Shown here: positions 6,802 through 36,101 of the stretch, piece after piece | Layout: every line of letters begins with the position of its first letter | How positions within the stretch are numbered: the first letter of the stretch is position 1 | From: Parvularculaceae bacterium | GTDB taxonomy: Bacteria > Pseudomonadota > Alphaproteobacteria > Caulobacterales > Parvularculaceae | Assembly (NCBI GenBank): GCA_028284065.1 | Contig: JANQSJ010000004.1 | Span: forward strand, 310,001-374,000 | Reading direction: 5' to 3' | DNA length: 64,000 nucleotides | Program-made: the position numbers and the translations under genes | The notes under the pieces: generated by a model | Seen by the model: only the letters and a program-made list of their open reading frames with translations | Told to the model about the DNA's origin: nothing | Database searches by the model: none

Positions 6802-6878
6802 GGGCCTGTAGCTCAATTGGTTAGAGCTGGCGGCTCATAACCGCTAGGTTGGGGGTTCGAGTCCCTCCGGGCCCACCA
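6802..6878 (+). tRNA. tRNA with CAT anticodon, probably tRNA-Ile2 (or elongator tRNA-Met)
   Basis: A complete 77-base cloverleaf with encoded CCA can be folded: acceptor GGGCCTG with CGGGCCC, D stem GCTC/GAGC, anticodon stem GGCGG/CCGCT around loop CTCATAA, five-base variable region, and T arm GGGGG-TTCGAGT-CCCTC. The anticodon is CAT. Base pairs C4-G69 and C5-G68 are the known acceptor features by which TilS recognises tRNA-Ile2, so lysidine-modified isoleucine tRNA reading AUA is more likely than elongator methionine. No initiator hallmark (mismatched first pair, three GC pairs in the anticodon stem) is present. Confidence 0.93.
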
Positions 6879-12508: not shown

Positions 12509-13291
12509 TCAGAAACGCAGAGACATGCAGGAAAGGCCGGCGTCGATTTTCGTCAATTCAGTTACGTCGAATCGCCTCAATCGTACGCCGATTTTTTCAA
12601 GCGCCATAAGGCTCTTCGGAAAGCCATCAGCACAGAAAATATCATCATTGATGCGTATCGCGTTCGCTGCGGCGGGCTCGTCTTCCGCGCACTCAATAAA
12701 TTCATAACTCCGAAAAGACGGGGCAAGCTCCTTCAGACCGAAAATCACGCCATCGTCGACAAGGCTGCACCCCGTCTTCAAGTGCAATAAATTTGCCGGC
12801 ACATCGCACAGACGGACTGTATATCCCATTGGTTCTAGAATCGCGCGCAGCGCGCGAACGCCGTCCTGATTTGTCCGCCTTGAGCCGCCGACAAAAACGT
12901 CGTCTTGGGTGATCAGTATGTCACCGCCATCCGCCTGCGCGCCAACTGGAAGCTCGAAAATCGCGTCTGGTTCATAGAAATGCTGAAGGGCGGCCTTTGC
13001 GTATTTGCTTTCGCCAACACGCGAAGGCGCGCCAGGACGCAGCATCACGGCGCAGTCGGCGAGACATAATGCCGGATCCTCAACGAACACACTGTCTGGA
13101 TAATCATCAAGCGGCGCCTCGACAGTGACCGACAAGCCTGCATCGGCGAGAGCATCGACGTACTTCTGATGAAGCGACGAGATTTCGACGAAGCTTGGAT
13201 CGTTCGCGTCGCCCATTCGCAGCCCCTTAACGACCGACGACGACGGTTTGCGAACGATGGCGCGTGTAAAGTGAATGCCTGATGGGCGCAC
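12509..13291 (-). CDS. N,N-dimethylarginine dimethylaminohydrolase (DDAH)-type guanidine hydrolase
   Basis: DDAH cleaves methylated arginine to citrulline and a methylamine, using a cysteine nucleophile in the guanidino-group-modifying fold. The 260 residues match the bacterial DDAH length. Visible features are the VFVEDPAL substrate loop (69-75), DGGDIL (121-126), GGSRRTN (135-141), the catalytic His170 in HLKTGC and the catalytic Cys255 in DAGLSC, six residues from the C-terminus. The start is GTG with AGGG upstream. It is the last gene of the operon with the ABC importer and the M24 protein. Related members hydrolyse other guanidines, so the natural substrate is inferred only as a guanidino or amidino compound. 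Confidence 0.87.
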   Translation of the reverse strand: MRPSGIHFTRAIVRKPSSSVVKGLRMGDANDPSFVEISSLHQKYVDALADAGLSVTVEAPLDDYPDSVFVEDPALCLADCAVMLRPGAPSRVGESKYAKAALQHFYEPDAIFELPVGAQADGGDILITQDDVFVGGSRRTNQDGVRALRAILEPMGYTVRLCDVPANLLHLKTGCSLVDDGVIFGLKELAPSFRSYEFIECAEDEPAAANAIRINDDIFCADGFPKSLMALEKIGVRLRRFDVTELTKIDAGLSCMSLRF

Positions 13292-13315
13292 GTTAGAACC
13301 CTAATTCAGCAATCG

Positions 13316-14494
13316 CTATTTGATGAATAGCTGGCGGGGCGCATCGCAGAGCGTCTCGGCCCCGGTTTCTGTGACGATGAATGGCTCACTGATGATAATG
13401 CTGGTGTTATCGGACCAAATGGCCGGCAACAGGTGCATGGTCGCGCCTTCGCGCAGGACGGTGTGGTCGCCGCGGCGAATGCTGGCCGTCAATTCGCCGC
13501 CGGTCGGGGGATACGCGATACCTTGCGAGTAGCCACAACGAGAGTCTTTTTCAATTCCGCGCGACTTCAGGAACAAGAGAAAGAAGTCGGCCAGCTCATG
13601 ACATGTCATTCCAGGCGCAATCATGGATAGCGCCTCGTCGATCGCCTCACTGATGATTTGCTCCAGTTCAACCAGCTTCTTCGGCGGATCGCCAATAAAC
13701 ACGGTGCGGCCCATGGTGCATTGATAACGCAGACGATTGCCCATCAATTCCAGATTGATCTGGGTGCCCGTAGCGATCTTTTCATCTGTCCAGGGAAGGT
13801 GCGGGGTCTTGATACGATCGCCGGCCAGAAAAAAGGCTGGACTACTGGTGTAGCTGCCTCCGAAATCTGCTGTTCCGGTGATATTCTCAGCATAAGCGAT
13901 CGCGACGGCGTCGCGCTGGCGCGCGCCTTCCTCGATGGCGTCGACGGTTCGCAGCATGACATTTGTCAATAGCTGGCCGGCTTCACGCATAAGCGTGCGC
14001 TCCTTTTCCGACTTGATGAACCGGACCCAGTTAACGAGCAGTCCGGAATCTTCAAAAATCGCGTTTGGGAGCTTTTGTTGCAGCTGTTGAAATGCGCGTA
14101 CTGATAAATAATAGCTTTCGCTTTCGATCGCGATTTTCGCGGCGCCTGCGCCGAGCGTCTCCTCTATTCGCTCCCCCACGATCGAAAATGGATGTCCTTC
14201 GGCGGATTGGACGAGGTGTTCGCCATAGCCGATGATGGCGCCGTCCGGCATCCATGACGTCATCCGCACGCCGGCGCAGTCCATGTTCCTGACGATGAAA
14301 ACCGGGTCGTCGTTCTGGAACATCAATAGCGCCTGAGGCGTATAGAGCGACCAACCGTCATACCCCGTCAGGTAATAGATATTGCATGGGTCGGTGACCA
14401 CTAAACAGTCATGGCCTTCGTCCGCCATTCGTGTGCGAACCGTATTTATGCGATGCGCAAACTCAGCTGCATCAAAAATGTCTAGCGATGTCAA
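13316..14494 (-). CDS. M24-fold amidohydrolase, ectoine hydrolase (DoeA)/creatinase-like
   Basis: The 392-residue protein has the pita-bread fold of creatinase and Xaa-Pro peptidases and most resembles DoeA. Shared signatures are LTGYDGWSLY near residue 42, a CGYSQGIAYPP segment, and the ending ETLCDAPRQLF. The five metal ligands of true M24 peptidases are missing (INLELMGNRLRYQC and GYSQGIAYPP replace the Asp, Asp and His segments), as expected for the metal-free creatinase/ectoine-hydrolase group. A histidine in IKTPHLPW lines up with the creatinase catalytic His. DoeA opens a cyclic amidine and creatinase cleaves a guanidine; here the pairing with a DDAH-type enzyme points to an amidine or guanidine substrate. 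Confidence 0.8.
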   Translation of the reverse strand: MTSLDIFDAAEFAHRINTVRTRMADEGHDCLVVTDPCNIYYLTGYDGWSLYTPQALLMFQNDDPVFIVRNMDCAGVRMTSWMPDGAIIGYGEHLVQSAEGHPFSIVGERIEETLGAGAAKIAIESESYYLSVRAFQQLQQKLPNAIFEDSGLLVNWVRFIKSEKERTLMREAGQLLTNVMLRTVDAIEEGARQRDAVAIAYAENITGTADFGGSYTSSPAFFLAGDRIKTPHLPWTDEKIATGTQINLELMGNRLRYQCTMGRTVFIGDPPKKLVELEQIISEAIDEALSMIAPGMTCHELADFFLLFLKSRGIEKDSRCGYSQGIAYPPTGGELTASIRRGDHTVLREGATMHLLPAIWSDNTSIIISEPFIVTETGAETLCDAPRQLFIK

Positions 14495-14537
14495 TTTTTT
14501 GCGCCCCCGATTTCTTGTAAATGCGTAATGATCTCAA

Positions 14538-16313
14538 TCATGCCGACTGAATCCGGGATAGCAGCTCGCCGTCGTCGGTCCCTCCCGCATTGGGCGATCC
14601 TGCACCCTTGATCGCCTGAGCCTTACGATCGTCAATCCGTTGGCAAACGTTTGAGTTCAAAACGAGGCGCTGCGTAAATCGATGCTTCGGCGCGTCCAGG
14701 ACGTCAAGCGTAGAACCCGTTTCGCAAACTTCGCCACGGTTTAGAACGACGACGTCGTCGCACAAGTGGCGGCAAACGGAGAGATCGTGAGTGATGAATA
14801 CAATTGTTACGCCGAACGCATCGTTCAGATCCTTCAGCATATCAACGATATAGGCCTGGATCGTGACATCAAGAGCGGACGTCGGCTCGTCGCAGATGAG
14901 TAGCGAAGGGTTCATCGAGAGGGCTCGTGCGATGGATATGCGCTGGAGTTGTCCGCCGGAGAATGCGTGCGGGTACTTGTCGAGATCGTTTCGGGCGAGG
15001 CCAACGGCTTCAATGAGCGTGACGGCCTGGTCTTCCGCGTCGGCGCGGCTCATGCCGGCGACTTTCTTTGGCGCGTCAATAAGCTGTCGAAAGACGGAGT
15101 AGCGTGGATTCAGGGACGCGAAGGGATTCTGAAAGATCATCTGGACCAAGGGCGCGTCCGTGGGCGAGGCGACGGCCTCATCTACGGTGGGCGCATTGGC
15201 GGACCCACCGCTCTTGTCCTCGACCGCGTGAGTAAAGGTGATGCGGCCGGCCGTCGGGTCGGCGAGACCGGCGATCAGTCGGGCGACGGTCGTCTTGCCG
15301 CTGCCGCTCGATCCGACAATCCCCAGAATTCTCCCTGGCGCGGCGGATAGGTTGACGTTCTTCAGCGCATAAAGGTCCGTCGTTTGTTTCAAGAAGATGT
15401 TCCGTTTGCCTGCGTACCGCACCGAGACGTCTTGTAAAACGACGCCAGTCGCAGCGCGGCTGTCGTTTCGGTCTAGACGCAAGCTGTTGGGCTGAAGCGT
15501 CGACAGCGGTGGATTTTGAAGCCGTTTCAATTTCCCCGTAGGCGGCGGGACGCTCGAAATTAACCGCCGGGCGTACGGGTGTCGCGGGTTCGCGAGGACA
15601 TCGCTTGTGGCGCCGGTCTCAATAACCTCGCCCTTATGCAAGATGCAGACGCGGTGCGCCGCCGCCTGCACGACGCTAACGTCGTGGGTAATCAACAGAA
15701 CGCCTATCTGAGAGGCCTCTGCGGCGTCCCGGAGCAACTCGATAATCCCGTTGCGGAGGCTGACGTCGAGAGCGGTCGTCGGTTCGTCGGCGATGATGAG
15801 CGAGGGGTCGCAGGAGAGGGCGATCGCAACGACGACGCGTTGAAGCATGCCGCCCGAAAGTTCGTGCGGGTAGCGCGGCAAGATGATTTCCGGATCATCA
15901 AAACCGACCCGCCGCAGCAACGTGATCGCCCGCTCGCGTGCGCTTCTCCTTGCGACGCCGCCCCTTATGATCAATGTCTCGATGAGTTGGCGACCTGCGG
16001 TCTCAAATGGATTAAGCGCAGACAACGGATTTTGAAAGATCGAACCGATCTCGGCGCCGCGAATGCGCTCGAATTGCGTCGGCGAAAAGCTGTCGAGGCG
16101 CTCACCGTTGAACGTGATCGAGCCAGACATGATCTTTCCGCCTGGCGGAAGGCGTCCGCCTATCGCCGCTCCAACCGTGCTCTTGCCGGCCCCGCTTTCG
16201 CCTACAAGCGCGACGATTTCCCCGGCCGTCACCGTCAGGTTGAAATCTTTGAGGATGTGTGCGGATGACTGGCCATTCTCGAAAGATAAGTTGAGGTCGT
16301 GGATCTTCAGCAT
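14538..16313 (-). CDS. ABC transporter ATP-binding protein, fused DppD-DppF type
   Basis: Two complete ABC ATPase domains lie in one 591-residue chain. The first has Walker A GESGAGKST near residue 38, the signature LSGGMLQR and Walker B LIIADEPTTALD. The second has GSSGSGKTT near 340, the signature FSGGQLQR and LLICDEPTSALD. The segments after each domain fit the oligopeptide/dipeptide importer family (PxHPYARRL and KHRFTQRL). It powers import of the solute captured by the binding protein encoded upstream. It overlaps the permease gene by seven bases and is followed 43 bases later by the M24 gene. Confidence 0.93.
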   Translation of the reverse strand: MLKIHDLNLSFENGQSSAHILKDFNLTVTAGEIVALVGESGAGKSTVGAAIGGRLPPGGKIMSGSITFNGERLDSFSPTQFERIRGAEIGSIFQNPLSALNPFETAGRQLIETLIIRGGVARRSARERAITLLRRVGFDDPEIILPRYPHELSGGMLQRVVVAIALSCDPSLIIADEPTTALDVSLRNGIIELLRDAAEASQIGVLLITHDVSVVQAAAHRVCILHKGEVIETGATSDVLANPRHPYARRLISSVPPPTGKLKRLQNPPLSTLQPNSLRLDRNDSRAATGVVLQDVSVRYAGKRNIFLKQTTDLYALKNVNLSAAPGRILGIVGSSGSGKTTVARLIAGLADPTAGRITFTHAVEDKSGGSANAPTVDEAVASPTDAPLVQMIFQNPFASLNPRYSVFRQLIDAPKKVAGMSRADAEDQAVTLIEAVGLARNDLDKYPHAFSGGQLQRISIARALSMNPSLLICDEPTSALDVTIQAYIVDMLKDLNDAFGVTIVFITHDLSVCRHLCDDVVVLNRGEVCETGSTLDVLDAPKHRFTQRLVLNSNVCQRIDDRKAQAIKGAGSPNAGGTDDGELLSRIQSA

Positions 16314-17242
16314 GTACCGCCCCGCGCGCTAAGAGGGCTTTGGAGAACCCGCAAGCGATCGCCGACGACGTTCATGCAGAAGACCAAGAGCAATAGGATG
16401 GATCCCGGCAGGATGCTGATCCAGTAGGCGCCGCCCATTAAGTACTCTTGGCCATCAGCGACGAGACCGCCAAGAGATGGTTGCGTTATAGGTAGGCCAA
16501 GTCCAAGAAAGGAGAGGCTCGCCTCAAGGGCGATCACAAAGCCGAACTGCACGGCGAGGATTACCGAAATTGGAGGAATGCAATTGGGCAAGACTTGCCT
16601 GAACAAAATGTCCGTGGCCGAAAAGCCTTGCAGCCGTGCAGCCGCCACATAGTCTTTTTTGAGTTCAGCTGTCGCCGCTGCATTCATCGCGCGCGCATAG
16701 TGCGTCCACTGAACGAGCAATATCGCGAGGACGGTGTTTTCTGCGCCGCGGCCCAGAATTGAGATGAATAGAAGCGCGAAGAGAATTGATGGCGCTGAAA
16801 GAAAAATATCAACCGTTCGCATAATTGCCGCCGCCGCGGCGCCCTGGGCATGAGCGGCGGCGAGACCTGCGACGCAGCCGATCGCTAGCGCCCCGCCGGT
16901 CGCTGCGAACGCGACGCCGAGGCTAGTACGCAAACCAAAAATGGCCATGCTGAGTATATCGCGGCCAAGGACGTCAGTTCCCAAAACGTAGCGGACATCG
17001 CCGATGGCGCTTTTTGACAAAGGAGCGAGCATGCTGTCAGCCAACTCGATGGCCGCAAGGTCGCCGGGTTTGTGCAAGGCAAAAAATGGACCAGCTAGCG
17101 CAATGACCAAAAAGCCCGCCGTCACCGACAGGCAAACGGCGGCGAAGCGGTCTTCATTGTAACGGGCGAGCCAGCGTCCGAAAGCGCTTTGCGCTAACCG
17201 TTGAAAGGACATGGCCCGAATATGCGGGACGAGAGCCGTCAT
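16307..17242 (-). CDS. ABC transporter permease, DppC type
   Basis: The 311-residue inner-membrane subunit has the DppC/OppC layout: a first membrane segment (LSVTAGFLVIALAGPFF), a periplasmic loop with the YVLGTDVLGRDILS motif, five further hydrophobic segments and the EAA coupling motif AARLQGFSATDILFRQVLPN that contacts the ATPase. Its start overlaps the stop of the upstream permease by four bases, so translation is coupled. Both permeases probably form the heterodimeric channel of a peptide or opine-type importer. Confidence 0.93.
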   Translation of the reverse strand: MTALVPHIRAMSFQRLAQSAFGRWLARYNEDRFAAVCLSVTAGFLVIALAGPFFALHKPGDLAAIELADSMLAPLSKSAIGDVRYVLGTDVLGRDILSMAIFGLRTSLGVAFAATGGALAIGCVAGLAAAHAQGAAAAAIMRTVDIFLSAPSILFALLFISILGRGAENTVLAILLVQWTHYARAMNAAATAELKKDYVAAARLQGFSATDILFRQVLPNCIPPISVILAVQFGFVIALEASLSFLGLGLPITQPSLGGLVADGQEYLMGGAYWISILPGSILLLLVFCMNVVGDRLRVLQSPLSARGGTC

Positions 17243-18222
17243 GCCGCAACTCTCTTCGGGCGCAGCGTCGGGTCCATCAGCATTTGGGCGATATCCGCCA
17301 GAAGGTTGAGCGCGAGGAACGCCATCGCTGTCAAAATGACAAAGGCGACGATGACTGGCCTATCAAGCGCGGCGACCGAGTCGACAAGTAACTTGCCAAC
17401 GCCAGGCCAAGCGAAGACGGTCTCCGTAATGACTGATCCCGCAATCAGCGCGCCGGTCTCAATAGCGACAATGGTAACCAAGGGCGCGCTCACCGCCTTC
17501 AAGAGATGGTTCGAAATCACGCGGCGCATCGGTAGGCCCTTGGCGTGCGCGAACGAAATAAACGTCTTGTGCTTTGTTTCTTCCGTCATCGTGGAGATCA
17601 TCCGCGTGAAGTAGCCGATCTCGTAAAGAGACAAAGTCACCGCTGGCAAGATAAGATGCGATAGACCATCCGCGGTAAAGACGCTCAGCCGAACGCCCAG
17701 GATTTGTATCGTGTCGCCGCGTCCGATCGAAGGCAAAGCGTCCGCGCCGACAGCAAAAATGTAAATGAGAACAAGGCCCACCCAGAACGTTGGAGCGCTG
17801 TAGCCGAGCACGGCGACGCGTTCGATTGCGGCGGAGAGGCGAGAGGGCTTCTTAAGTCCTGAAATCAGGCCTAAGGGATAGCCGAGGCAAAACGCAATGG
17901 CGATGGCGCACCCGACAAGCTCTAGCGTCGCGGGCAGTCGCTCGAGAATCACCTTCATCGCTGGCTCTTGATATACCCACGACTGGCCGAACTGTCCGCT
18001 CATGACGTCCGCAAGAAAGCGCGCGTACTGAATGTGCAACGGGTTATCGAGACCGAGTTCAGCCCGCAACGCCGCCAAGCGCGCCGGGTCCTCGCGCACC
18101 AGAGGGTCGTAAAGGGCGGCGGGCTCGCCGATCAGGAACACCGCTGCGAAGACTGCGAAAGAGATTGCAATCAGAGTAAGCGCGGATTGTCCGATGCGCG
18201 ATAGAAGAATGGAAAACATCAT
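17239..18222 (-). CDS. ABC transporter permease, DppB type
   Basis: The 327-residue subunit starts with the typical short DppB N-terminus and one membrane segment, then a periplasmic region with LRAELGLDNPLHIQYARFL...GQFGQSW, and five more hydrophobic segments. The EAA-type loop (FAHAKGLPMRRVISNHLLK) and the VFAWPGVGKLLVDSV signature near the end are present. It is translationally coupled by four-base overlaps to both the binding-protein gene and the second permease gene. Confidence 0.93.
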   Translation of the reverse strand: MMFSILLSRIGQSALTLIAISFAVFAAVFLIGEPAALYDPLVREDPARLAALRAELGLDNPLHIQYARFLADVMSGQFGQSWVYQEPAMKVILERLPATLELVGCAIAIAFCLGYPLGLISGLKKPSRLSAAIERVAVLGYSAPTFWVGLVLIYIFAVGADALPSIGRGDTIQILGVRLSVFTADGLSHLILPAVTLSLYEIGYFTRMISTMTEETKHKTFISFAHAKGLPMRRVISNHLLKAVSAPLVTIVAIETGALIAGSVITETVFAWPGVGKLLVDSVAALDRPVIVAFVILTAMAFLALNLLADIAQMLMDPTLRPKRVAA

Positions 18223-19934
18223 TGCGCCTGAGCCAACCGGTTCGTGAGGGCGGGCGTTGCATTGAGAATCTCTAGATCGCGGACATTCTTGGTTGGCTGA
18301 TACTGGATGCGATCGTTGCGATAGCCGAACACATATTCGAAGTGGTAAATCGGGAGGAGGGCGACGTCTTTAGCGGTAAGCCGCGCGACGGCGGCGAGTT
18401 GTTCGTGTTGCTCGGAGACGTCAGCGCTGGTCGTCTGAGCGAGGAGTGCATCCACCATTGGATTCGAGTAGCCGCCGACATTGTCGTACCCATTCGTGTC
18501 GAGCGTGACGGAGACGATTGGCGCTGTGCGATAATACTGCAATCCATAGCTTGATAGGCAGACGGAGAATTCTTTGTTCACCCATCTGCCCCAGTAAACG
18601 CTGGCGGGGATCGCGTCCACATCCACCTCAAGACCGATTTTCGCCCACATGGCGGCCATCGCCTGAAGAATTCGCCTGTCCGGGCCGTATAACCCCGACG
18701 TTCCGTGAAGGGTCAATGCAAATCCGTCGGGGTACCCGGCCTCTTCCAAGAGTTTTCGGGCGCGCCGACGATCGGTCGTAACGTCCTTTATCGCAGCATT
18801 GTGTCCCACAAACCCCGGCGCGATCCACTGCGCAGCCGGCGTCGCGTAACCGTCGAGAAGCTTGTCGACGATAAGTTGCCGGTCAATCGCCAGGGAGAGG
18901 GCCTGGCGGACACGTACATCCTTAAGTGGATTTTCGATCGGCGCTCCGTTCTTGTCGGTGACGAATGGCGATACATCGCGTGCGATATCAATATGAAAAT
19001 AGAGCGCCCTGTTCGCCGGCGCCGTCGCGATGGTGATGTCCTCCGCGCGATCGATACGCTGAATATCGGTGGTCGGGATATAGTTTGTAAAATCAATGTC
19101 GCCTGCCAAAAGGGCTGCGACGCGCGCGGCGTGATTTGGAATGAACTTTAGAACGACATTTTCCCAAAGAGGCGGCTCGCCCCTGAAGTGCGGATTGCGG
19201 ACATACTCGATCAAATCTCCGCGCCGCCATTCGGCGAATTTGTAGGGGCCGGTGCCAACCGCCGCCTCCAGGGTATTGAATTCGGCGGGCGTCGCGTTTG
19301 CGATCTCGCTTGAGAGTATTGGCGCCTCCATCAGATACCCGATGAAGTTTGGCGTCGGCTCGGCAAGTCGCACGATTACGGCGTGCTCACCGCGTGCCTC
19401 AACTGACGAGATCGCATCGGTCACGTATTTAATTGGAATGCCGGCGCCTGGCGGATCGGCGAGTCGTTTCAAGGTGAAGACGACGTCGTCGGCGTCGAAC
19501 GCCGTTCCATCGCTGAATACCACGCTCTTCTTCAAGTCGATCCGCACGGTCAGCGGATCGGTGAATTCGTAGCTTTCGGCAAGAAGCGGGTAGATTGTCT
19601 TGCCATCCAACTCGCGAAAGAAGAGGGGTTCGAAAACTGCAGGGAACGTTGCTTGTTGGATTTGTCCGAATAGGCCGTACTGCGGGTCAAGCGTCTGCGG
19701 CTCTTCGGCGGAACCAATAATGAGCGTCGCCTTTCGCGATTCGCCGTCGCGGGATGCTTCAACGCAACTCGCCATTGCGGCGGCTAGAACAAAGAACGAT
19801 GCAATACGTACGGACGAGAGGGCATGGGCGCCGGCGCATCGAATCGAATTTGCGACCGAACCTAGCCGATGCAAGAGCCAAGGGGCTTTCTGAGCAGGGA
19901 TGCCAGCCGCGCTGTTTCGATCGTCGCCCATCAA
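18219..19934 (-). CDS. ABC transporter solute-binding protein, family 5 (peptide/opine type)
   Basis: The protein resembles DppA/OppA-like binding proteins: EEPQTLDPQYG at the start of the mature part, VRIDLKKSVVFSDGTAFDADDVVFTLKRL, VGTGPYKFAEWRRGD, VRQALSLAIDRQLIVDKLLDG and a LLEEAGYPDGF segment. The N-terminus has a hydrophobic run and a possible lipobox ending in cysteine (AAAMASC), so it may be a lipoprotein; the long leader before it makes the exact start uncertain. Family 5 proteins bind peptides, nickel chelates, opines or oligosaccharides, so the ligand cannot be read from sequence. It is the first gene of the six-gene operon ending with DDAH. Confidence 0.9.
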   Translation of the reverse strand: MMGDDRNSAAGIPAQKAPWLLHRLGSVANSIRCAGAHALSSVRIASFFVLAAAMASCVEASRDGESRKATLIIGSAEEPQTLDPQYGLFGQIQQATFPAVFEPLFFRELDGKTIYPLLAESYEFTDPLTVRIDLKKSVVFSDGTAFDADDVVFTLKRLADPPGAGIPIKYVTDAISSVEARGEHAVIVRLAEPTPNFIGYLMEAPILSSEIANATPAEFNTLEAAVGTGPYKFAEWRRGDLIEYVRNPHFRGEPPLWENVVLKFIPNHAARVAALLAGDIDFTNYIPTTDIQRIDRAEDITIATAPANRALYFHIDIARDVSPFVTDKNGAPIENPLKDVRVRQALSLAIDRQLIVDKLLDGYATPAAQWIAPGFVGHNAAIKDVTTDRRRARKLLEEAGYPDGFALTLHGTSGLYGPDRRILQAMAAMWAKIGLEVDVDAIPASVYWGRWVNKEFSVCLSSYGLQYYRTAPIVSVTLDTNGYDNVGGYSNPMVDALLAQTTSADVSEQHEQLAAVARLTAKDVALLPIYHFEYVFGYRNDRIQYQPTKNVRDLEILNATPALTNRLAQAQ

Positions 19935-20298: not shown

Positions 20299-20357
20299 AA
20301 ACAGATGTGAAGGCTCTAATCATACCGCAGCGCAGCAACGTGAAAGGCAGGCACGTC

Positions 20358-22976
20358 ATGGGGATTAAAAGGGTTTTCAAGCGGGGCGCGTTGCTGGCGT
20401 CGACGGCGCTGGCGATCACGGGGCAATCCGGCGTCGCACATGCGCAAGGTGAAGATGAGGGAGACGTCATCGTTGTAGTCGGCTCGCGTATTGAGCGGTC
20501 TGCGGAAGATACCGCGTCGCAGCCGGTTCAATTCATCGATGAGGCGTTCTTCAAAACGACGCCAGCTGAGAATGTCGCCGACTTCCTCCGGGAAATCCCC
20601 ATCAATACCGGCGCGTCCGCGTCTAACTTCAACGATGAGTACAATGGCGGCAACTCCAGCATAAACCTGCGAGGGGTCGGCCCGCAGTTCACGCTGGTTC
20701 TGTTAAACGGAAGGCGATTTGGCGGCGAGTCCGTACCAGATATCGGGGCGATACCGCCTGAAGCCGTTGAGACAGTTGAAATCCTGAAGACGGGCGCTTC
20801 ATCCGTTTACGGTTCTGACGCTGTTGCGGGCGTCGTGAACATTCGCCTGAAGGAGGATTTCGAGGGGCTTGATGTCGTGGCCTCATATGGCGGGGCGACG
20901 CAAGGCGGCGGGGAGACCTTTCGGGTCGCGGCCGTCGGCGGTTTCCAGACTGAGCGGCTGAGCTTTACAGGATCGCTCGCCTACCAGGACTACAAGGGGT
21001 TCAACCGCGACGAGCGGGTGTTCACCTCCAGCCGTGATTACCGCCGGTTTGGCGGAATCGATCGGCGTAGCGGGTTCATTGGCGATCCGAACGCGATCTT
21101 CATTCCGTCGTCCGGAAACGTTGTCACGCTGGATACCAATCAGGTCGGGCTTGGCGACGTGCCGACAAGCCCCGGCCAGTTCATCCCGTTTCCTGATGAG
21201 AACAACCGCTTTTCAACCAATGAGCCTGGCGTCGCGCCGCCGGTGGAGCGCATTAACGGCCATTGGTCCGTCAAATACGATCTCGTCCCGGACCTCGTTG
21301 AATTCTACACTGAAGGATATGTTGACACGCGCGAGCAGGAGTTCTTCGCGCAAGTTCCGATCGATTTCGGCGCGAATGTGCCGGCGACGAACCCCTTCAA
21401 TCCTTTCGGCGAAGACGTCAGCGCGCGGTTCGTCCTGAGCGAGTTGGACTTCATCACCGAGACGGCGAACGTGATTAACTATCAGGCGGCTGCCGGGTTC
21501 AAGGGCGCGTTAGGGGACCTAAACTATGACGTCAGCTACACCCGATACCGCCAGTCGAACGAACGCGACTACACTGGCGAACTGAACCCGGCGGGGCTCG
21601 CCGCCGCCTTGTCGCGTACGGACGCCACCGCGCTCAATCCCTTCTGCGACGAGTGCAACACCGACGCGCAATTGGCCGGGATCATCGCGCCGCCTGGATT
21701 CATCGATCAAAATGACCAGATCCAGACGATCGATGTCGTCTTTAGCGGAGACGTATTTGAGCTGCCCGCTGGCGCGGTATCGTTCGCGGCTGGCTACCAA
21801 CACCGCGCCGTCGATTTTGACGTCAACTATAATGATGTTTGGGAAAACGGCAGTACGCAATTCTCTTGGTTCACATCGGATTTTGCCGACACCAGCGGAT
21901 CGCGAAACGTCGACGCGGTATTCGGCGAGGTTCTGCTCCCGCTATATGAGAGCGCCAACCCGGACGCGGTTTTCACCCAGGCCGAAGTGACAGGCTCAGT
22001 ACGCTATGAAAATTATAGCGACTTTGGCGGCGCCACCGTGTTTTCAGCGCTTGGAAAGACAGAGTGGTTTGGCGGCGATGTGATCCTTCGGGCGTCATAC
22101 ACCGAATCTTTCCGCGCTCCCCCCGTCGCAGCGTTGACGCTGCCTGAACGCACTCTCTTTGAACCTAGCGGCGGCGGCGTCTTCGACCCTGTGCGAGGCG
22201 GATTCCTGCCGACGTTCTTCCGCACTGGCGGAAATCCTGATCTTGGTCCTGAGGAAGGAACGACGTTCAGCGTTGGCGCAGTGCTGCGGCCGTCGTTTAT
22301 CGAAGGTTTCTTCGCCAGCATTGACTATTTTGATCTGGAGATCACAAACATCATCCGGACGCCGGACGCGCAAGGCCTACTGGAAGGAACGGAAACCGCC
22401 GGCACCATCACGCGGGACGCCAACAATGTGCCAACGCTTGACCTAAGGTTGAACAATGGCGGCGACCGGACCGTGCGGGGGTATGACTTCAGCGTCAGCC
22501 AAACCTTCGATACCGATCGGGTCGGCACGTTCAACATTTATGCGAACGGCGTCGTTCAGGTTGAAAATGAGCGTTTCGAAAACGGCGTCACGACCAATCT
22601 GCTTGGCGAATTCCTTGAAGGTCCGATTCCCAGGTTCCGCGGTATCTTCGGGGTCGGCTGGGCCGGCGACGCGGTCGATTTCGCAGCGAATGTCGACTAT
22701 GCGACTGGCGTCAATGAGTTTCTTGACGCCGGCGCGGTCGTGATCGACCGCAAGACCGATGATTGGGTCACGGTCGATATGCAGATCGGGTACGACTTCA
22801 GCAATGTCGGGCCCAAGGATTCGCTGATCACAAAGAACCTGCGCGCCTATATTGGCGTTGAAAATATCTTCGACGACGGTCTGCCGTTCTTTGCGCGTAG
22901 TTCCGACGGCTGGGATCGCGCAATTGGCGACCTGAGAGGTCGTTACGTATACGGCGGCGTTCGCAAAAGCTTCTAG
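20358..22976 (+). CDS. TonB-dependent outer-membrane receptor
   Basis: The 872-residue protein has a signal peptide (LLASTALAITGQSGVAHAQ), a TonB-box-like DVIVVVGSR segment, and a plug domain with NVADFLREIP, INLRGVGPQFTLVLLNGRR and VETVEILKTGASSVYGSDAVAGVVNIRLK. A long beta-barrel follows, ending in an aromatic C-terminal residue (GVRKSF). This layout is typical of the many receptors used by Caulobacterales, Sphingomonadales and relatives to take up plant or polymer-derived compounds, not only siderophores. The ATG preceded by AAAGGCAGG is preferred over one 51 bases upstream. It is divergent from the ABC operon and has its own terminator, so it is probably monocistronic. Confidence 0.92.
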   Translation: MGIKRVFKRGALLASTALAITGQSGVAHAQGEDEGDVIVVVGSRIERSAEDTASQPVQFIDEAFFKTTPAENVADFLREIPINTGASASNFNDEYNGGNSSINLRGVGPQFTLVLLNGRRFGGESVPDIGAIPPEAVETVEILKTGASSVYGSDAVAGVVNIRLKEDFEGLDVVASYGGATQGGGETFRVAAVGGFQTERLSFTGSLAYQDYKGFNRDERVFTSSRDYRRFGGIDRRSGFIGDPNAIFIPSSGNVVTLDTNQVGLGDVPTSPGQFIPFPDENNRFSTNEPGVAPPVERINGHWSVKYDLVPDLVEFYTEGYVDTREQEFFAQVPIDFGANVPATNPFNPFGEDVSARFVLSELDFITETANVINYQAAAGFKGALGDLNYDVSYTRYRQSNERDYTGELNPAGLAAALSRTDATALNPFCDECNTDAQLAGIIAPPGFIDQNDQIQTIDVVFSGDVFELPAGAVSFAAGYQHRAVDFDVNYNDVWENGSTQFSWFTSDFADTSGSRNVDAVFGEVLLPLYESANPDAVFTQAEVTGSVRYENYSDFGGATVFSALGKTEWFGGDVILRASYTESFRAPPVAALTLPERTLFEPSGGGVFDPVRGGFLPTFFRTGGNPDLGPEEGTTFSVGAVLRPSFIEGFFASIDYFDLEITNIIRTPDAQGLLEGTETAGTITRDANNVPTLDLRLNNGGDRTVRGYDFSVSQTFDTDRVGTFNIYANGVVQVENERFENGVTTNLLGEFLEGPIPRFRGIFGVGWAGDAVDFAANVDYATGVNEFLDAGAVVIDRKTDDWVTVDMQIGYDFSNVGPKDSLITKNLRAYIGVENIFDDGLPFFARSSDGWDRAIGDLRGRYVYGGVRKSF

Positions 22977-23016
22977 TATCCCTCCCGAGAGCTTGGGCGA
23001 AGGTCCGCTTACTACC

Positions 23017-23056
23017 GGCTCACCGAAGCGTCGGCTTTGGTGAGCCATTCTTCTTC
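23017..23056 (+). terminator. Intrinsic terminator after TonB receptor gene
   Basis: A 13-pair stem (GGCTCACCGAAGC with GCTTTGGTGAGCC, one G-U pair) closes a GTCG loop and is followed by a T-rich run ATTCTTCTTC. It lies 41 bases after the receptor stop codon and separates it from the GMC gene. Confidence 0.8.
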
Positions 23057-23149
23057 ACACACAGTCTGAACTACAGTTGAAAGACATTGCCTTTTGTGAG
23101 TTGATCAGGCCCCTTGGCGTGGGTCCATCCGAGCAAATAGTAGATCTAA

Positions 23150-24769
23150 GTGGCGTTAATAGTGCCGGATACTGATGAATTCGACTACATCGTTATCGGC
23201 GGCGGCAGCGCCGGCGCGCCGGTCGCCGCGCGTTTGAGTGAGTCTGGACGTTATCGTGTTCTGCTCCTTGAAGCTGGTCCGCGGAGATCGCCGTTCTGGG
23301 TACGCACGCCGATCGCCTATGTCTTTTTCCTTGAACGTCCGTCTTCCCATAATTGGGGGTTCAAGACCGAACCAGAGGCCACGCTTGGCGGTCGGGTTAT
23401 CAATGCGCCAAGAGGCAGGGGGGTCGGCGGCACATCGCTCATCAACAGCATGATGTATGTGCGCGGCGCGCCATTTGATTACGACGGTTGGCGAGACAAC
23501 GGCGCCATTGGATGGTCCTATGAAGATGTGCTTCCGTTCTTCAAAAAGGCGGAGCGCCACACATGGGGCGAAAGCGTGCATCATGGGGGCGCTGGCCCTC
23601 TGGAGGTCCGGGGACCGCAATCCAAAAGCCCCATCCATGACGCGATGGTTGCGGCTGGCCGGGAGTGCGGTTTTGCGGCGACTGAGGACTTCAATGGTGA
23701 GGCCTATGAAGGCTTCGGCCGCTATCATCACAACCAATTCCTCAAGGACGGACGCCGTTGCTCTACGGGCGCGGCCTATCTGAATGAAAGCGACGTTCCT
23801 GCGAACCTGGAGATCAGGGACAACGCTAGGGTTACGCAGATCGAGATTAAGGATCGCCGCGCGGTCGGCGTCGCCTACAGGCGGCGGGGTGAGGAAATGT
23901 CGTCGTCCTGCCGTGGTGAGGTCATTCTATGCGCTGGCGCCTTTCAGTCCCCCCAGATCATGATGCTGTCGGGCGTTGGGCCGGCGGCGGAACTGGCGCG
24001 TCATGGTATTGAGGTGCTTGCCGCCCAGCCAAGCGTCGGCGCCAATCTCATGGACCATTATGGCGCCGACATTCAGTGTACAGCATCACAGCCCGTTTCG
24101 TTATACTCCTCCATGACATTCCCGGGCGCGTTGATTGCCCTTTACCAAATGCTGTTTCATGGAAAGGGACCCTATACATTTTTTCCGTTCGACTCCGGCG
24201 CCATGGTGCGCAGCGCGCCGGACGCCGAAGAACCTGACGTCCAATTCCTGTGTGGCGACTACACGCGCGAGGGCGGGCGTAAGACCATGCGTCGCCACGG
24301 GTTCAATATCGCGTGGTGTCAAAGCAGACCGAAGAGCCGAGGGCGGGTTTCGCTTAGGTCGGGTGATCCCTTCGACCCGCCGGCGATTAGATACGACTTC
24401 CTGTCAGAGGCGGAAGACCGCGCCGTTCAAAGGCGAGCGTTCAAGCTCGCGCGGCGTTTGATCGAATCGAGCGCATTCGCGCCTTATCTCGGCGTGGAGA
24501 TAGCCCCCGGGCCGGAGTGCCGAACTGATGATGATATTGACGTCTATATCGCATCATATGGCGCTCAGCATCACCATCCATGCGGAACAATGAAGATGGG
24601 GCCGCCTGGCGAGGGCGTCGTTGATCACCGACTGAAAGTTCATGGCATGGAAGGACTTAGAGTCGCCGATGCCTCAATCATGCCGAAAATCGTCAGCGGC
24701 AACACAAATGCCCCGACGATCATGATCGGGGAGAAAGCCGCCGCGATGATTCTGGAGGATGCGCCTTAA
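23150..24769 (+). CDS. GMC-family FAD-dependent alcohol dehydrogenase/oxidase
   Basis: The 539-residue flavoenzyme has the Rossmann FAD motif YIVIGGGSAGAPVAARLS (17-22 glycine cluster), the second GMC signature GRGVGGTSLINSMMYVRG, and the C-terminal catalytic region with HHHPCGTMKMG (H476 the likely base) and SGNTNAPTIMIGEKAA (N520 as second catalytic position). It belongs with choline dehydrogenase-like and polyether alcohol dehydrogenases, oxidising an alcohol to an aldehyde, likely passed to the aldehyde dehydrogenase encoded 130 bases downstream. The start is GTG without a strong ribosome site. No signal peptide is seen. Confidence 0.92.
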   Translation: MALIVPDTDEFDYIVIGGGSAGAPVAARLSESGRYRVLLLEAGPRRSPFWVRTPIAYVFFLERPSSHNWGFKTEPEATLGGRVINAPRGRGVGGTSLINSMMYVRGAPFDYDGWRDNGAIGWSYEDVLPFFKKAERHTWGESVHHGGAGPLEVRGPQSKSPIHDAMVAAGRECGFAATEDFNGEAYEGFGRYHHNQFLKDGRRCSTGAAYLNESDVPANLEIRDNARVTQIEIKDRRAVGVAYRRRGEEMSSSCRGEVILCAGAFQSPQIMMLSGVGPAAELARHGIEVLAAQPSVGANLMDHYGADIQCTASQPVSLYSSMTFPGALIALYQMLFHGKGPYTFFPFDSGAMVRSAPDAEEPDVQFLCGDYTREGGRKTMRRHGFNIAWCQSRPKSRGRVSLRSGDPFDPPAIRYDFLSEAEDRAVQRRAFKLARRLIESSAFAPYLGVEIAPGPECRTDDDIDVYIASYGAQHHHPCGTMKMGPPGEGVVDHRLKVHGMEGLRVADASIMPKIVSGNTNAPTIMIGEKAAAMILEDAP

Positions 24770-24838
24770 GGCAAGGATTGAGACAGACCGTCGCTGGGTC
24801 TCCCGCGATCACAACGGCTTTCGGTGAGCTACGCGTTT

Positions 24839-24858
24839 TACATTTCAATAAAAATCTT
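24839..24858. promoter_or_regulatory. Shared operator-like dyad before aldehyde dehydrogenase gene
   Basis: TACATTT-N6-AAATCTT: the left half is exact and the right half matches five of seven positions of AAATGTA. It lies in a strongly AT-rich stretch 42 bases before the preferred GTG start, suggesting the dehydrogenase can be transcribed separately from the GMC gene. Confidence 0.5.
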
Positions 24859-24900
24859 TTTTGTGTTTTCATGGATATTGAACGCTGGCGAGGAGTTTCT

Positions 24901-26349
24901 GTGCGGAATCTGGCGTCAATAATTGGCGATGGGCGAAAGTCGGCGGCCTCAGACGTATTCGAAGTCCGTTCGCCTGCGACTGACGACGTCGTTGCGCATT
25001 GTGAAGCAGCCGACCTCAATGACGTCGCCGCATCGATGGCGGCGGCGTCAGCGGCGTTTGACGTATGGCGGAAAAGGTCGCCTGAGGAACGGGCGGCGGC
25101 GCTGTTATTGATTGCAGACGGATTATTGCGCTCAGCCGGTGCGCTGGCGCGAATCATTCATGAAGAGCAGGGAAAACCCTTAGCGGAGGCGGAGGGCGAG
25201 GCGCAGTTCATCGCCGAAGAGTTCCGCATGGCCGCGCGTGAAACGCAAATGCTCTTTGGACGTGTCCTCGCGCCGCCCGATCCTTTCACTGAACGCCGCG
25301 TCGAGCGCGCGCCGCTAGGCGTTATCGCTGTCTTTCCTTCTTCGAATTATCCAGCAGCCATTGCTGCGCGCAAACTGGCGGCAGCCCTTGCCGCAGGCTG
25401 TACGGTAGTAATGCGCGCGCCTGAAGAGGCGCCGGGCGCGGCGTTCCATATCGCGGAGAAGTGCCGTCGCTCGCCCCTCCCGAACGGAGCAGTCTGCTGC
25501 CTCGCAGGAAATCCCGAAATAGTGACTGCGGCGATGATTAAAGACCCGCGCTGCGCGGGCGTCTCGTTCACTGGTTCGGCCCGCATCGGCCGTTTGGTTC
25601 TCTCGCATGCCGCCGCCGCGATAAAGCCAAGCGTCGTAGAGCTCGGCGGCGCGGCGCCGGCGATCATTTGCGCAGATGCGGATATTGAGGCCGCCGCGAC
25701 GTCGATCGCCGTGAAGAAACTGGAGAACGCCGGGCAGAACTGCGCGGCGCCGAACTGCGTTCTCGTCGATCGCCGCATCCACCACGCGTTTGTGGATACT
25801 CTTTGGGATCGTTTCCGCGATGCGGCACTCGATGGGGAGGGGCGAATTGCGATTGGTCCCTTGATCAGCAAAGCCGCGGCCGATGACTACAGCAAGAGGC
25901 TATTAGACTTCGGAGCGCAAGGGGCGACGATTCGGCGCGTCGAAGCGCGCCTGCCGGAAAAAGGCAACTTCGTCTGCCCGGCGCTTGCCACAGGCGTCGG
26001 GCCTGCAAGCGCGTTGATCCACGAGGAGATATTCGGACCGCTATTGCCGATCGCGCAAACATCGTCACTCGATGAGGCGCTCGCCATCGCCAATTCGAGT
26101 CCGCTCGGGCTCGTGGGCTACGGATTTTCCGCCTCCGCACGCAATGCCCGTCGGATCGCGGAAGAATTGGAAGTGGGTAGCGTCGCCATAAACAAGACGG
26201 GCGTCGGCGATATTGACGCGCCTTTCGGGGGCTTGCGCGGCAGCGGCTTCGGAACCGAAGGCGGCGGTTTCGGACTTGAGGCGTTTCTCACATGGCGATT
26301 TGTGTCGCACCGCCACATCTCGCCTTCGTCCGACGCGACGGCCGATTGA
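24901..26349 (+). CDS. NAD(P)-dependent aldehyde dehydrogenase
   Basis: This 482-residue ALDH-superfamily enzyme has the catalytic Cys281 (GQNC), the general base Glu247 (VELGG) and the oxyanion Asn149 (SSNYP). The cofactor-binding lysine region is VMRAPEEAP rather than the usual VKPAE, an unusual substitution that could change cofactor preference. It should oxidise an aldehyde, possibly the product of the upstream GMC enzyme, to an acid. The GTG start is chosen because GAGGAG lies five bases before it; an ATG 30 bases upstream lacks such a site. It converges with a TetR gene. Confidence 0.9.
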   Translation: MRNLASIIGDGRKSAASDVFEVRSPATDDVVAHCEAADLNDVAASMAAASAAFDVWRKRSPEERAAALLLIADGLLRSAGALARIIHEEQGKPLAEAEGEAQFIAEEFRMAARETQMLFGRVLAPPDPFTERRVERAPLGVIAVFPSSNYPAAIAARKLAAALAAGCTVVMRAPEEAPGAAFHIAEKCRRSPLPNGAVCCLAGNPEIVTAAMIKDPRCAGVSFTGSARIGRLVLSHAAAAIKPSVVELGGAAPAIICADADIEAAATSIAVKKLENAGQNCAAPNCVLVDRRIHHAFVDTLWDRFRDAALDGEGRIAIGPLISKAAADDYSKRLLDFGAQGATIRRVEARLPEKGNFVCPALATGVGPASALIHEEIFGPLLPIAQTSSLDEALAIANSSPLGLVGYGFSASARNARRIAEELEVGSVAINKTGVGDIDAPFGGLRGSGFGTEGGGFGLEAFLTWRFVSHRHISPSSDATAD

Positions 26350-27267: not shown

Positions 27268-28782
27268 TCACAGGATTGCCCCGCTCTTTGCCGATTTCTG
27301 CTTGACGAAGCAGGCGCCTTGATCCGTCAGAAGCCTTACGGCCTCGCCACTATTGTCGTATTCCCAGACGCCGGAAAACTGGCGAAGGCGAGCATAGGGC
27401 GGACGACGATATCCGGCAATCGCCCCGCCTTCTTCTTGGCAGATATCGAATTCCGCCGATCCAGCACGAAGTACGAGGTGGCCGTTGTCTACGTATACGT
27501 CACTTTCGCCAAAACCGGTGTCGTCAAAATATGCCCCGCAATGCCGCTCCAAACACGCTGAGTCTACAGTCTTGGAAGCGTGCGCGTCCAATCGCGCGAT
27601 GTGAGGGCGCGTGTGCGCGCATTGTTGATGCTCAAGAAACGCGTCGAGCCAGCGGCCGCCCTCCAGGTTGAGATGTTGGTCGAGGAGCGCCTGAAAGATC
27701 GCGCGCGGCAAGAACGGGTTGTCCGCATTTGCAAGGACCGCGACGCCAAAGTCGGATTCCGGCAGGAAGCCAATAATCGACCGGAACCCATCAATTGAAC
27801 CAGTGTGGTAACAGATTGATGTTCCACGATATTCATGACGGTACCAGCCAAGCGCATAGGTTTGGTTTTTAACGCCCAGCGGGCCATGCCCGAGGACGCA
27901 CGCGAAGTCTTCGTCCTTAAACGGCCCTTCTTCAGCCGTGTGCGGCATGAGCATATGTTCTATCTGCTCCGATGAAATGAGGCGTTGGCCTGCCACGGCC
28001 CCGCGACCCAACAGGGCGCGCAGCCAGATCGACAAATCCGCGGCGCAAGTATTGACGCCGCCGGCCGGCGTAGCAGCTTCTTCATAAGCCCAATCGATTT
28101 CACTAAAGCTGTCGCCATCCCAAAGATGAGGCGACGCGGCGTTGCGATCAGCCTTCGCTCGAATGTGGTCGGCGTTCGTGCGGAACATGCCGAGCGGCGA
28201 CCAGATTTCTTCTTCGGCGAATTGCTCCCAGGTGATTCGCGTCGCCGCTTCGACAATCGCGCCGATGACTGTGAAACCGTCCGAGCAATACCCGTATCCC
28301 TTCCTGAATGGATGTCGGAAACGCTGCCGTCGCATGCGGACTAGTAGATCCTTGCGCGACGTGGCGCAGCGCCGATGCCGCCCTTCTGAACTCTCAAGCC
28401 CGATGCGGTTCGACAACAGATCCCTGATCGTCGCTTCGGAAGTAGCTCGAGGATCCGAAAGAAGAAAATCCGGCAGATGGTTTTTAACCTTGTCGTCAAA
28501 CGTGAGGACGCCCCGGTCGACAAGCACCGCGATTGACGCCGCCGCGAACGTTTTTGAGATGCTCGCCGCCGCGAACAAGGTTTGATCGTCGACACGCGCC
28601 GCATCGTCCATCCGCAGCGCGCCCGCAGCCGCGCGAATGTCATGCTCTCCGTCGACAATGCAAATGGCGACGCCGGGCTGGCGCCAAGCGCGTCGGATCT
28701 TTTCAAGCCAGACGCTAAGGCTGTCCCCACAAAGCAGCTCTGGCGCGGTGAGAATGGCGTCGGCGCTCAAATCTGGCGTCAT
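27268..28782 (-). CDS. Class C beta-lactamase-like serine hydrolase (cytoplasmic)
   Basis: The 504-residue protein has the penicillin-binding/AmpC fold motifs: S74-I-S-K77 (SxxK nucleophile and base), Y165-C-S in place of YxN, and HTG in place of KTG (YHTGSIDGFRS). These changes are common in D-aminopeptidases, esterases and amidases of this fold. A C-terminal domain of about 130 residues (CLERHCGAYFDDTGF...GVWEYDNSGEAVRL) resembles the beta-barrel attached to such hydrolases. No signal peptide is seen. The ATG with GAGGAAAG upstream is preferred over an earlier one. A shared dyad lies 42 bases upstream. Confidence 0.87.
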   Translation of the reverse strand: MTPDLSADAILTAPELLCGDSLSVWLEKIRRAWRQPGVAICIVDGEHDIRAAAGALRMDDAARVDDQTLFAAASISKTFAAASIAVLVDRGVLTFDDKVKNHLPDFLLSDPRATSEATIRDLLSNRIGLESSEGRHRRCATSRKDLLVRMRRQRFRHPFRKGYGYCSDGFTVIGAIVEAATRITWEQFAEEEIWSPLGMFRTNADHIRAKADRNAASPHLWDGDSFSEIDWAYEEAATPAGGVNTCAADLSIWLRALLGRGAVAGQRLISSEQIEHMLMPHTAEEGPFKDEDFACVLGHGPLGVKNQTYALGWYRHEYRGTSICYHTGSIDGFRSIIGFLPESDFGVAVLANADNPFLPRAIFQALLDQHLNLEGGRWLDAFLEHQQCAHTRPHIARLDAHASKTVDSACLERHCGAYFDDTGFGESDVYVDNGHLVLRAGSAEFDICQEEGGAIAGYRRPPYARLRQFSGVWEYDNSGEAVRLLTDQGACFVKQKSAKSGAIL

Positions 28783-28823
28783 CAACAGCTTTCCTCTCCC
28801 TGCGCGCCGCCACATACGCTATT

Positions 28824-29145: not shown

Positions 29146-31224
29146 GTGCTAGTGCTTAGCATCAGAAAATGGAGAAAGACCGAAGCGGCGCAGCGATTTG
29201 CGCGAGTTCTTTCGGCGCTTGCGATGTCTTGCCTGCTTCTTGTCGCAACAGGACGCGCGGGCGCGACAGATAGTTCGCCTGCGTCAGTCGAATCCAGTGA
29301 ACTTGCGGCAGGAACAGATGCGACACTGTCCGCATCCGTTGCGGACATTGCTGGCTCCATCAGTCGAACTCCCTCGGCAGCGAAACTTGATGTTCGAGAG
29401 CTGGAGCGCTTCGTCGATGGCGTCGTTATGACGGCGATGCAGGATCATTCGATCGCCGGCGCTGTCGTATCGGCTGTATCGACGGACGGGACGCTACTAG
29501 TAAAGGGATACGGCTACGCTGACGTTGAAAGCGGTCGCAAAGTCGATCCCCACAATGATCTCTTTCGGGTCGCCTCCATATCCAAGTTGTTCACGGCGAC
29601 CGCCATCATGCAACTTGTGGAACAAGGCCGCATTGACCTCGATACCGATATTCGCGCCTATCTCGGGGATTTAGGGTACGATGATTCAAAAGGAGCCATC
29701 ACGGTCGCCGATCTTCTCACCCATACGGCCGGTTTCGAAGATCGAATTTTTGGTTACTTCGGGGCGAATCCGGATTTGGAGAATAAACCGCGTTCGGAGC
29801 AGTTCGCCGCCCTAGCGCCGAAGCAGGTTCGCGCCCCCGGTGAATGGACGGCCTATTCGAACTATGGCTTTGCATTGCTCGGCGAAATCGTCGCGCGCGT
29901 CTCTGGCCTGTCCTACGCTGAGTACATCGAACGGCGCATCTTTGTCCCGCTCCGCATGGAAAGCTCTGCCACGTCGATCAGGTCGACCGCGTCCGGAACG
30001 GGCGATGCGAAGACTGAGCGACTGCGCGTGCGCGAAGCGAAAAGCCATCGCCCGGGCGACGGGTGGTTGGTGACTCAGTCCTTTCCGGAGACGCTCGACC
30101 TTCTCGAACCGGAAGGCAGCATCGCGACGACGGCCGCAGACATGACGCGTTTCATGCGCGCGCACTTAAACGACGGCGCGCTTGATGGCGCGCCTATTCT
30201 CTCCGTCGACACGACGCGGAAGATGCATGAAACGCTTTATTCTGACCTCCCTGGCATTGTTGGAAACGCTCACGGGTTCTGGGTGAATGACGTCGCGGGA
30301 TACCGAACGCTTGAGCATGGCGGGTCAATCAACGACTTCAAATCGAACCTCGTTCTTATCCCCGAACTGGGCCTTGGCGTGTTCGTTTCGACGAATTCCG
30401 CTGCAGGAAGCGCCCTGTCGCGGTTGCCGGAGCGCCTGGTGCGTGAATTCTTTCTCCGATCGCCTGACTACCGCACATCGACAGGCGGAAACACGTCGTT
30501 CGACCCAAACGACCTCGCTGGCAGATATCTGGGGGCGAGACGCGTCCATTCACGGCTCGGAAAGCTCCTTAGCGCGCCCGATATTCTCACCGTGGCCGTA
30601 GCGGATGATGATGCGTTAGTCGTTTCGGGTGACTTCGGCGCCGTCCGGTATGAGCGCATGCCGGATGGCGTCTACCGGTCGCTGAAGTCGCTCGAACCGA
30701 TCGGCTTCGAACCAGCAGATGGCGATAAGCCTGCGCTGATACACTTCGGCGGCTCCGCCCATAACGCATACGAACGTTTGACAGTCGCGAATGACCCGGC
30801 GACGTTTTTTGGTCCCGTGGCCCTTGCGTCGGTCGCCTGCTTGGCGGTCTTTGCCGGATACCTTGTGCGCTTGTTCGGCTATAGGATCGCGCATGCCTCG
30901 GTCGCGCCACTCGCTGAGCGGTCGGTTGTGCTGGCTGGCGCGGCCGCGACTCTCGCCTATATTGGTTTCGCGGCGTTGACGCTCGCTAATCTCGTCGCAA
31001 ATCCAAACATTCTCTATGACTCTTTTCCGACGCCGAGCTTTCGGATCGCGTTCGTACTTGGGTGGCTCGCGGTAGCCGCCTCCGCAATCGTTGGTTTGGT
31101 CGCCGTACGCGCCCTTTTTGGCGACGAGCGCAACGTGTTTCAGAAGGCGCGCCTCCTGCTGTTTGCGGCGGTCCTCATTGATTTTTCCTGGTCGGTGTTC
31201 CACTGGAAAGCGTTGGCGTTTTAG
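29146..31224 (+). CDS. Class C beta-lactamase-like serine hydrolase with C-terminal membrane domain
   Basis: The 692-residue protein has a signal sequence or anchor (VLSALAMSCLLLVATGRAGA), then the hydrolase domain with S144-I-S-K147, Y237-S-N239 and HGG (LEHGGSINDF). After a beta domain there are four hydrophobic segments at the C-terminus (for example ALASVACLAVFAGYLV and FAAVLIDFSWSVF). The catalytic domain should face the periplasm. Related proteins are D-aminopeptidases, peptidoglycan-directed enzymes or esterases. A GTG start is used; GGAG lies about 11 bases upstream. It is followed after 85 bases by the PLP-enzyme gene. Confidence 0.87.
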   Translation: MLVLSIRKWRKTEAAQRFARVLSALAMSCLLLVATGRAGATDSSPASVESSELAAGTDATLSASVADIAGSISRTPSAAKLDVRELERFVDGVVMTAMQDHSIAGAVVSAVSTDGTLLVKGYGYADVESGRKVDPHNDLFRVASISKLFTATAIMQLVEQGRIDLDTDIRAYLGDLGYDDSKGAITVADLLTHTAGFEDRIFGYFGANPDLENKPRSEQFAALAPKQVRAPGEWTAYSNYGFALLGEIVARVSGLSYAEYIERRIFVPLRMESSATSIRSTASGTGDAKTERLRVREAKSHRPGDGWLVTQSFPETLDLLEPEGSIATTAADMTRFMRAHLNDGALDGAPILSVDTTRKMHETLYSDLPGIVGNAHGFWVNDVAGYRTLEHGGSINDFKSNLVLIPELGLGVFVSTNSAAGSALSRLPERLVREFFLRSPDYRTSTGGNTSFDPNDLAGRYLGARRVHSRLGKLLSAPDILTVAVADDDALVVSGDFGAVRYERMPDGVYRSLKSLEPIGFEPADGDKPALIHFGGSAHNAYERLTVANDPATFFGPVALASVACLAVFAGYLVRLFGYRIAHASVAPLAERSVVLAGAAATLAYIGFAALTLANLVANPNILYDSFPTPSFRIAFVLGWLAVAASAIVGLVAVRALFGDERNVFQKARLLLFAAVLIDFSWSVFHWKALAF

Positions 31225-34758: not shown

Positions 34759-34832
34759 TCAAATTCCTGTCGCAACCAGCATATGCTTGGCGGTCGATCA
34801 GCGCTGTGATGACGCCTCATCCGGGAGCGGAC

Positions 34833-36089: not shown

Positions 36090-36101
36090 CGAGGTTTCGC
36101 C

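Follow-up and report, generated by a model that had tools for sequence, protein, structure and literature searches.

A six-gene operon joins a peptide-type ABC importer to a predicted metal-free DoeA-like M24 hydrolase and a DDAH-like enzyme, possibly for the breakdown of modified arginine

Which molecule would a bacterium import and cut when one run of genes carries a Dpp-type ABC importer, an M24 hydrolase resembling the ectoine hydrolase DoeA, and a DDAH-like enzyme, and do its two enzymes work in succession? The question is raised by an operon in a 64,000-nucleotide stretch of a Parvularculaceae genome (contig JANQSJ010000004.1), called the window below, whose first letter is position 1. 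ORF and gene calls placed six minus-strand genes from 19934 to 12509, each at the coordinates given by an earlier sequence-only reading of this DNA, and the assigned families were all upheld by Pfam and NCBIfam (Table 1). The tight layout described by that reading, with four- to seven-base overlaps or short gaps, was recovered as well. From the gene coordinates, the substrate-binding protein (SBP) gene overlaps the first permease gene by 4 bases, the two permease genes overlap by 4 and the second permease gene overlaps the ATPase gene by 7, while gaps of 43 and 24 bases separate the ATPase from the M24 gene and the M24 from the DDAH-like gene. Since scans for consensus promoters and terminators returned sites no commoner than in shuffled sequence, we infer co-transcription of the six genes solely from their spacing.

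Table 1. The six genes of the operon and the divergent TonB-dependent receptor gene, in window positions
Feature	Coordinates	Strand	Family support
Substrate-binding protein, family 5 (Dpp/Opp/Nik type), probable lipoprotein	18219..19934	-	SBP_bac_5 6.7e-84
ABC permease, DppB type	17239..18222	-	BPD_transp_1 7.5e-32 and BPD_transp_1_N
ABC permease, DppC type	16307..17242	-	BPD_transp_1 2.8e-25
Fused two-domain ABC ATPase (DppD-DppF type)	14538..16313	-	two ABC_tran stretches and oligo_HPY
M24 'pita-bread' hydrolase, predicted metal-free DoeA-like kind	13316..14494	-	Creatinase_N and Peptidase_M24
DDAH-like, likely N-omega-substituted arginine hydrolase (C255, H170, D121)	12509..13291	-	ADI/DDAH family; NF045658 2.1e-56
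TonB-dependent receptor, divergent from the operon	20307..22976	+	Plug and TonB_dep_Rec

The operon holds a Dpp/Opp/Nik importer gene set in one run (SBP_bac_5, two BPD_transp_1 and two ABC_tran domains), and these domains, together with oligo_HPY, bear out the peptide-type importer proposed earlier. The set shares with other importers of this family the SBP_bac_5 protein, the two permeases and the ATPase domains with oligo_HPY; it differs from them in that both ATPases lie in one chain, and the closest SBP homologues in the sampled genomes are only 37-38% identical. A lipobox-like LAAAMASC lies inside the longest SBP ORF, at residues 50-57 of the translation, so the start codon is uncertain. 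Matches of the SBP in the PDB scatter over peptide, opine and nickel binders, with AgaA among the nearest solved structures; such matches are not diagnostic of a ligand, and the ligand is not readable from the sequence. Peptides are not the sole ligands of family-5 binding proteins, which also bind opines, nickel complexes and others. The TonB-dependent receptor encoded divergently from the operon may serve this uptake at the outer membrane, a link that we infer. Taken as a whole, the operon probably serves the import of a small, peptide-like molecule and its cleavage by two enzymes.

The chemistry of the last enzyme is the most readily predicted. The DDAH-like protein aligned over its full length with Pseudomonas DDAH (PaDDAH, 3rhy; 168.6 bits), and mammalian DDAH1 aligned too. 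In the alignment to the PaDDAH and mammalian DDAH1 structures its triad is intact (C255, H170, D121), the triad of DDAH1 being Cys273, His172 and Asp126 (PMC10256801). D121 stands in the place of PaDDAH E114 and is an aspartate, as in mammals. The PaDDAH positions L18, D60, F63, E65, D66 and R85 read L24, D66, F69, E71, D72 and R91, and R132, H162, I243, D244 and C249 read R139, H170, I249, D250 and C255; we take these conserved contact positions to include those that hold the guanidino, alpha-amino and carboxylate groups of the substrate. Because the triad and every checked contact are kept, hydrolysis of an N-omega-substituted L-arginine is likely, and we hold with good confidence that the enzyme converts some such arginine, its substituent left unspecified, to citrulline, a reaction that we presume from knowledge of the family. 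The intact active site thus supports the DDAH-like enzyme of the earlier reading. The protein scored under all three NCBIfam equivalog cut-offs for dimethylargininase (191.5 against 450, 146.4 against 340 and 26.1 against 300 bits), which lowers the exact naming only, since these models are narrow. It therefore resembles the dimethylargininases (PaDDAH 1h70 and 3rhy; mammalian DDAH1) in full-length alignment, triad and substrate contacts, but differs from them in its scores in these three models and in having genes for a Dpp-type importer and an M24 protein as neighbours. In genomes of the same family, DDAH genes were seen by eye near apparent kynureninase, kynurenine formamidase and amino-acid permease genes.

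The AlphaFold model of the M24 protein (pLDDT 94.5) matched best the DoeA of Halomonas elongata (6yo9; Z 52.5, rmsd 1.5 over 389 residues, 37% identity), followed by creatinase (Z 40.5) and then by prolidases. When the alignment was read by hand, the metal ligands of the Pyrococcus prolidase (D, D, H, E, E) corresponded to E249, T260, Q324, L356 and E370, so that three of the five are gone (T260, Q324, L356) in a pattern like that of DoeA. H232 and E249 were at least 98% conserved among 119 relatives. In both trees, for which the H. elongata protein (6twk) served as the DoeA reference, the M24 protein was placed apart from the clade of DoeA. In the second tree, three Steroidobacteraceae proteins were its partners (support 100), a fourth joining at 97, and the M24 proteins of its class mates grouped with Rhizobiaceae, which points to an alphaproteobacterial host. 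Fold model, residues and trees together identify it as a predicted metal-free DoeA-like hydrolase of an uncharacterised branch apart from the ectoine hydrolases. Low-similarity DoeA homologues (30-45% identical) lacking other ectoine genes were already noted in 2011 by Schwibbert et al. (PMC3187862). Ours is alike in its identity to DoeA and in the absence of ectoine-pathway neighbours; theirs, however, came from Firmicutes, Euryarchaeota and gamma-proteobacteria, whereas ours is probably alphaproteobacterial, sits on a Steroidobacteraceae branch and adjoins a DDAH gene.

Our preferred reading, to which we give a probability of about one in three, is that both enzymes act in sequence on an arginine-derived compound. 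The Dpp-type importer would bring in a peptide-like arginine derivative, which may reach it by way of the divergent TonB receptor; the M24 enzyme would cleave a C-N bond of the amide or amidine type and release an N-omega-substituted L-arginine, which the DDAH-like enzyme would turn into L-citrulline and an amine through a cysteine-bound intermediate. We put this pathway first because it accounts for the whole gene run. It builds on the observed gene order, protein families, predicted M24 fold, loss of M24 metal ligands and kept DDAH active site, whereas what the M24 enzyme acts on, and in which order the steps follow, is guesswork. In a more specific version, the substrate would be a cyclised or blocked arginine, for example MG-H1 (methylglyoxal hydroimidazolone, in which arginine bears a creatinine-like ring) or a peptide residue with a cyclic guanidine, whose ring the M24 enzyme would open before the DDAH-like enzyme yields citrulline and an amine or amino acid. 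This version is suggested by the kinds of enzyme alone and we consider it improbable. In the literature searched, neither a DDAH-M24 operon nor a bacterial pathway for MG-H1 was described. If it is true that both enzymes act in sequence, the operon would encode a new catabolic route for modified arginine. M24 proteins that resemble DoeA but fall outside the ectoine clade are widespread, occurring in Bacillota, haloarchaea, rhizobial plasmids and Steroidobacteraceae, and they usually bear peptidase names; in the protein of the window the metal site is gone. The operon ties such a protein to an importer and to an enzyme of predictable chemistry, which makes for a short list of substrates.

About as likely as the sequential pathway, even slightly more so, is that one transcript serves two functions: importer and M24 enzyme, with the TonB receptor, would form a module for a peptide-like compound, like those of Steroidobacteraceae, and the DDAH, serving methylarginine salvage, would have been added in this lineage, the two enzymes not acting in sequence. 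The distribution of the genes bears on this choice. M24 matches were listed for 289 genomes of the class, 249 of the order and 398 of the phylum (about 940 in total), and DDAH matches for the order (249) and phylum (398) samples. The search for the same gene pair, which the sequence-only reading had called for, returned no adjacent M24-DDAH pair in the about 940 sampled genomes beyond the source genome. Eight phylum genomes contained both genes, on separate contigs or hundreds of kilobases apart, which favours two functions. DDAH was absent from the flanks of the examined M24 loci of the class and phylum samples (about 1.5 kb, and more around 20 of the class loci) and, among the matches listed in a scan of a genome collection, from flanks of up to 9 kb around 80 M24 loci. 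The pair is thus rare, perhaps recent.

The contexts of the M24 kin also argue for two functions, being of a peptide type and devoid of DDAH. The nearest named relative, from Peristeroidobacter soli (51% identity), is flanked by a TonB receptor and an M16 peptidase, with a penicillin acylase, an S9-like peptidase and a POT transporter nearby, and DDAH was not detectable in the P. soli genome, so this M24 clade can do without that enzyme. A Steroidobacteraceae-related genome holds seven DoeA-like M24 paralogues, several of which, mostly as judged by eye, adjoin TonB receptors, POT-like transporters or S12-like hydrolases; the TonB receptor of the window is 33% identical over 915 columns to a receptor adjoining one of them. 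These contexts, which count for the sequential pathway as well, fit a peptide-like substrate and do not name one. DDAH kin, for their part, have other partners elsewhere: in Ruegeria pomeroyi, the DDAH relative comes after an aminotransferase and a 5-guanidino-2-oxopentanoate decarboxylase. Against two separate functions stand the gap of merely 24 bases between the M24 and DDAH-like genes and the operon-like spacing throughout, and methylarginine could still come from imported peptides. The earlier reading had proposed import and stepwise dismantling of a guanidine- or amidine-containing molecule; of this, the importer, the DDAH active site and the DoeA-like M24 protein stand, while action of the M24 enzyme on amidines or guanidines is not established. 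Nor is sequential action, given that no other sampled genome has the two genes side by side, that eight genomes keep the genes apart and that P. soli has no detectable DDAH. A joint guanidine/amidine pathway would be a reasonable guess from the sequences.

Far less likely is that the M24 protein is an ordinary Xaa-Pro peptidase acting on imported dipeptides, the name that automatic annotation would give. The M24 fold, the peptide-type importer and the many relatives annotated as 'Xaa-Pro peptidase family protein' speak for it, but a metallopeptidase is disfavoured by the loss of three of the five metal ligands (the positions now T260, Q324 and L356) and by the far closer structure of metal-free DoeA.

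Creatine-type catabolism, in which the M24 enzyme would free sarcosine for oxidation by soxBDAG, has a still smaller chance. Creatinase is the next structural relative after DoeA, and about 20 kb from the operon, at 34746-40010, there is what looks like a full set of sarcosine oxidase genes. Like creatine amidinohydrolase (1chm, 1kp0, 7yto), the M24 protein has a metal-free M24 fold (Z about 40) and keeps the H232 and R335 positions. In the alignment to 1chm, read by hand, however, creatinase R64, E262 and E358, which we take to be substrate residues (numbering and roles), are T52, G262 and L356 and so are not retained, and the sox genes form a separate unit whose GC3 is nearer that of the chromosome than the GC3 of their neighbours is.

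The least likely reading is a variant of ectoine or hydroxyectoine catabolism with the M24 protein as ectoine hydrolase: DoeA is its nearest solved structure and TIGR02993 its top NCBIfam match, but the score of 354.5 bits is far from the equivalog cut-off of 613, the clade is another one, the pocket is altered, no DoeB-type gene is annotated in the window and the importer differs in kind from known ectoine importers. DoeA/EutD of H. elongata (6twj, 6twk, 6yo9) and the M24 protein share the whole fold, the pattern of metal-ligand loss and the H232/E249 positions. Unlike DoeA, the M24 protein reads P for H54, S for D220, Q for H264, T-G for D338-W339, L for R342 and I for E374, and it adjoins neither DoeB nor ectoine genes. 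These pocket positions, fixed in the DoeA clade, differ in the clade of the M24 protein, so that an amidine substrate cannot be transferred from DoeA. Among the window genes scanned, neither doeB/eutE nor any other ectoine gene was found, and the earlier remark that DoeB, ureohydrolase and creatininase are missing also holds, since neither the operon genes nor the remaining genes scanned are annotated as any of these. Hence, of the DoeA/creatinase-like label given earlier, the DoeA fold and the metal-free state are retained, and cut-off, clade and pocket residues argue against an ectoine hydrolase and the substrate residues against a creatinase, in agreement with the earlier view that the substrate is not simply ectoine or creatine.

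The operon lies inside a lower-GC region that begins at a tRNA-Met gene (6802-6878), directly past which the GC content drops from about 0.64 to 0.58, recovering near 52 kb. In a congener, the left flank as far as the tRNA and the right flank from about 52.7 kb onward are also present; they lie on separate contigs that carry other genes beyond. No relative of the M24 protein was found at 1e-40 in the 248 other genomes of the order, and single-protein scans of genome-contig and viral-contig collections with the M24 protein gave no relatives. Acquisition by transfer is likely; as the congener's flanks are on different contigs, no clean insertion was seen, and the 3' end of the tRNA-Met gene has no exact repeat of at least 12 bases elsewhere in the window. 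The variable lower-GC region from the tRNA-Met 3' end (6802-52700) is a candidate genomic island.

On one side of the operon, the DDAH-like gene converges with a gene for an SCP2 and Glyoxalase_3 domain protein that ends at 12389. On the other, divergent from the operon, the TonB receptor gene is followed in series by genes for a choline-dehydrogenase-like GMC oxidoreductase and an aldehyde dehydrogenase (20307-26349), and the TetR regulator at 26519 is 41% identical to a TetR near the P. soli M24 gene. The sarcosine oxidase genes (soxB, soxD-like, soxA and soxG-like, apparently a complete heterotetrameric enzyme) are accompanied by a divergent AraC/DJ-1-type regulator (33679-40010 in all). 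The variable region also encodes three S12 beta-lactamase-fold hydrolases and a penicillin-amidase family acylase (27268-28815, 29146-31224, 40000-41523 and 42062-44554). Finally, a cystathionine gamma-synthase family protein scoring above the PRK08249 cut-off is encoded at 31310-32500; on a Priestia plasmid, an M24/eutB cluster also contains a gene annotated as belonging to this family.
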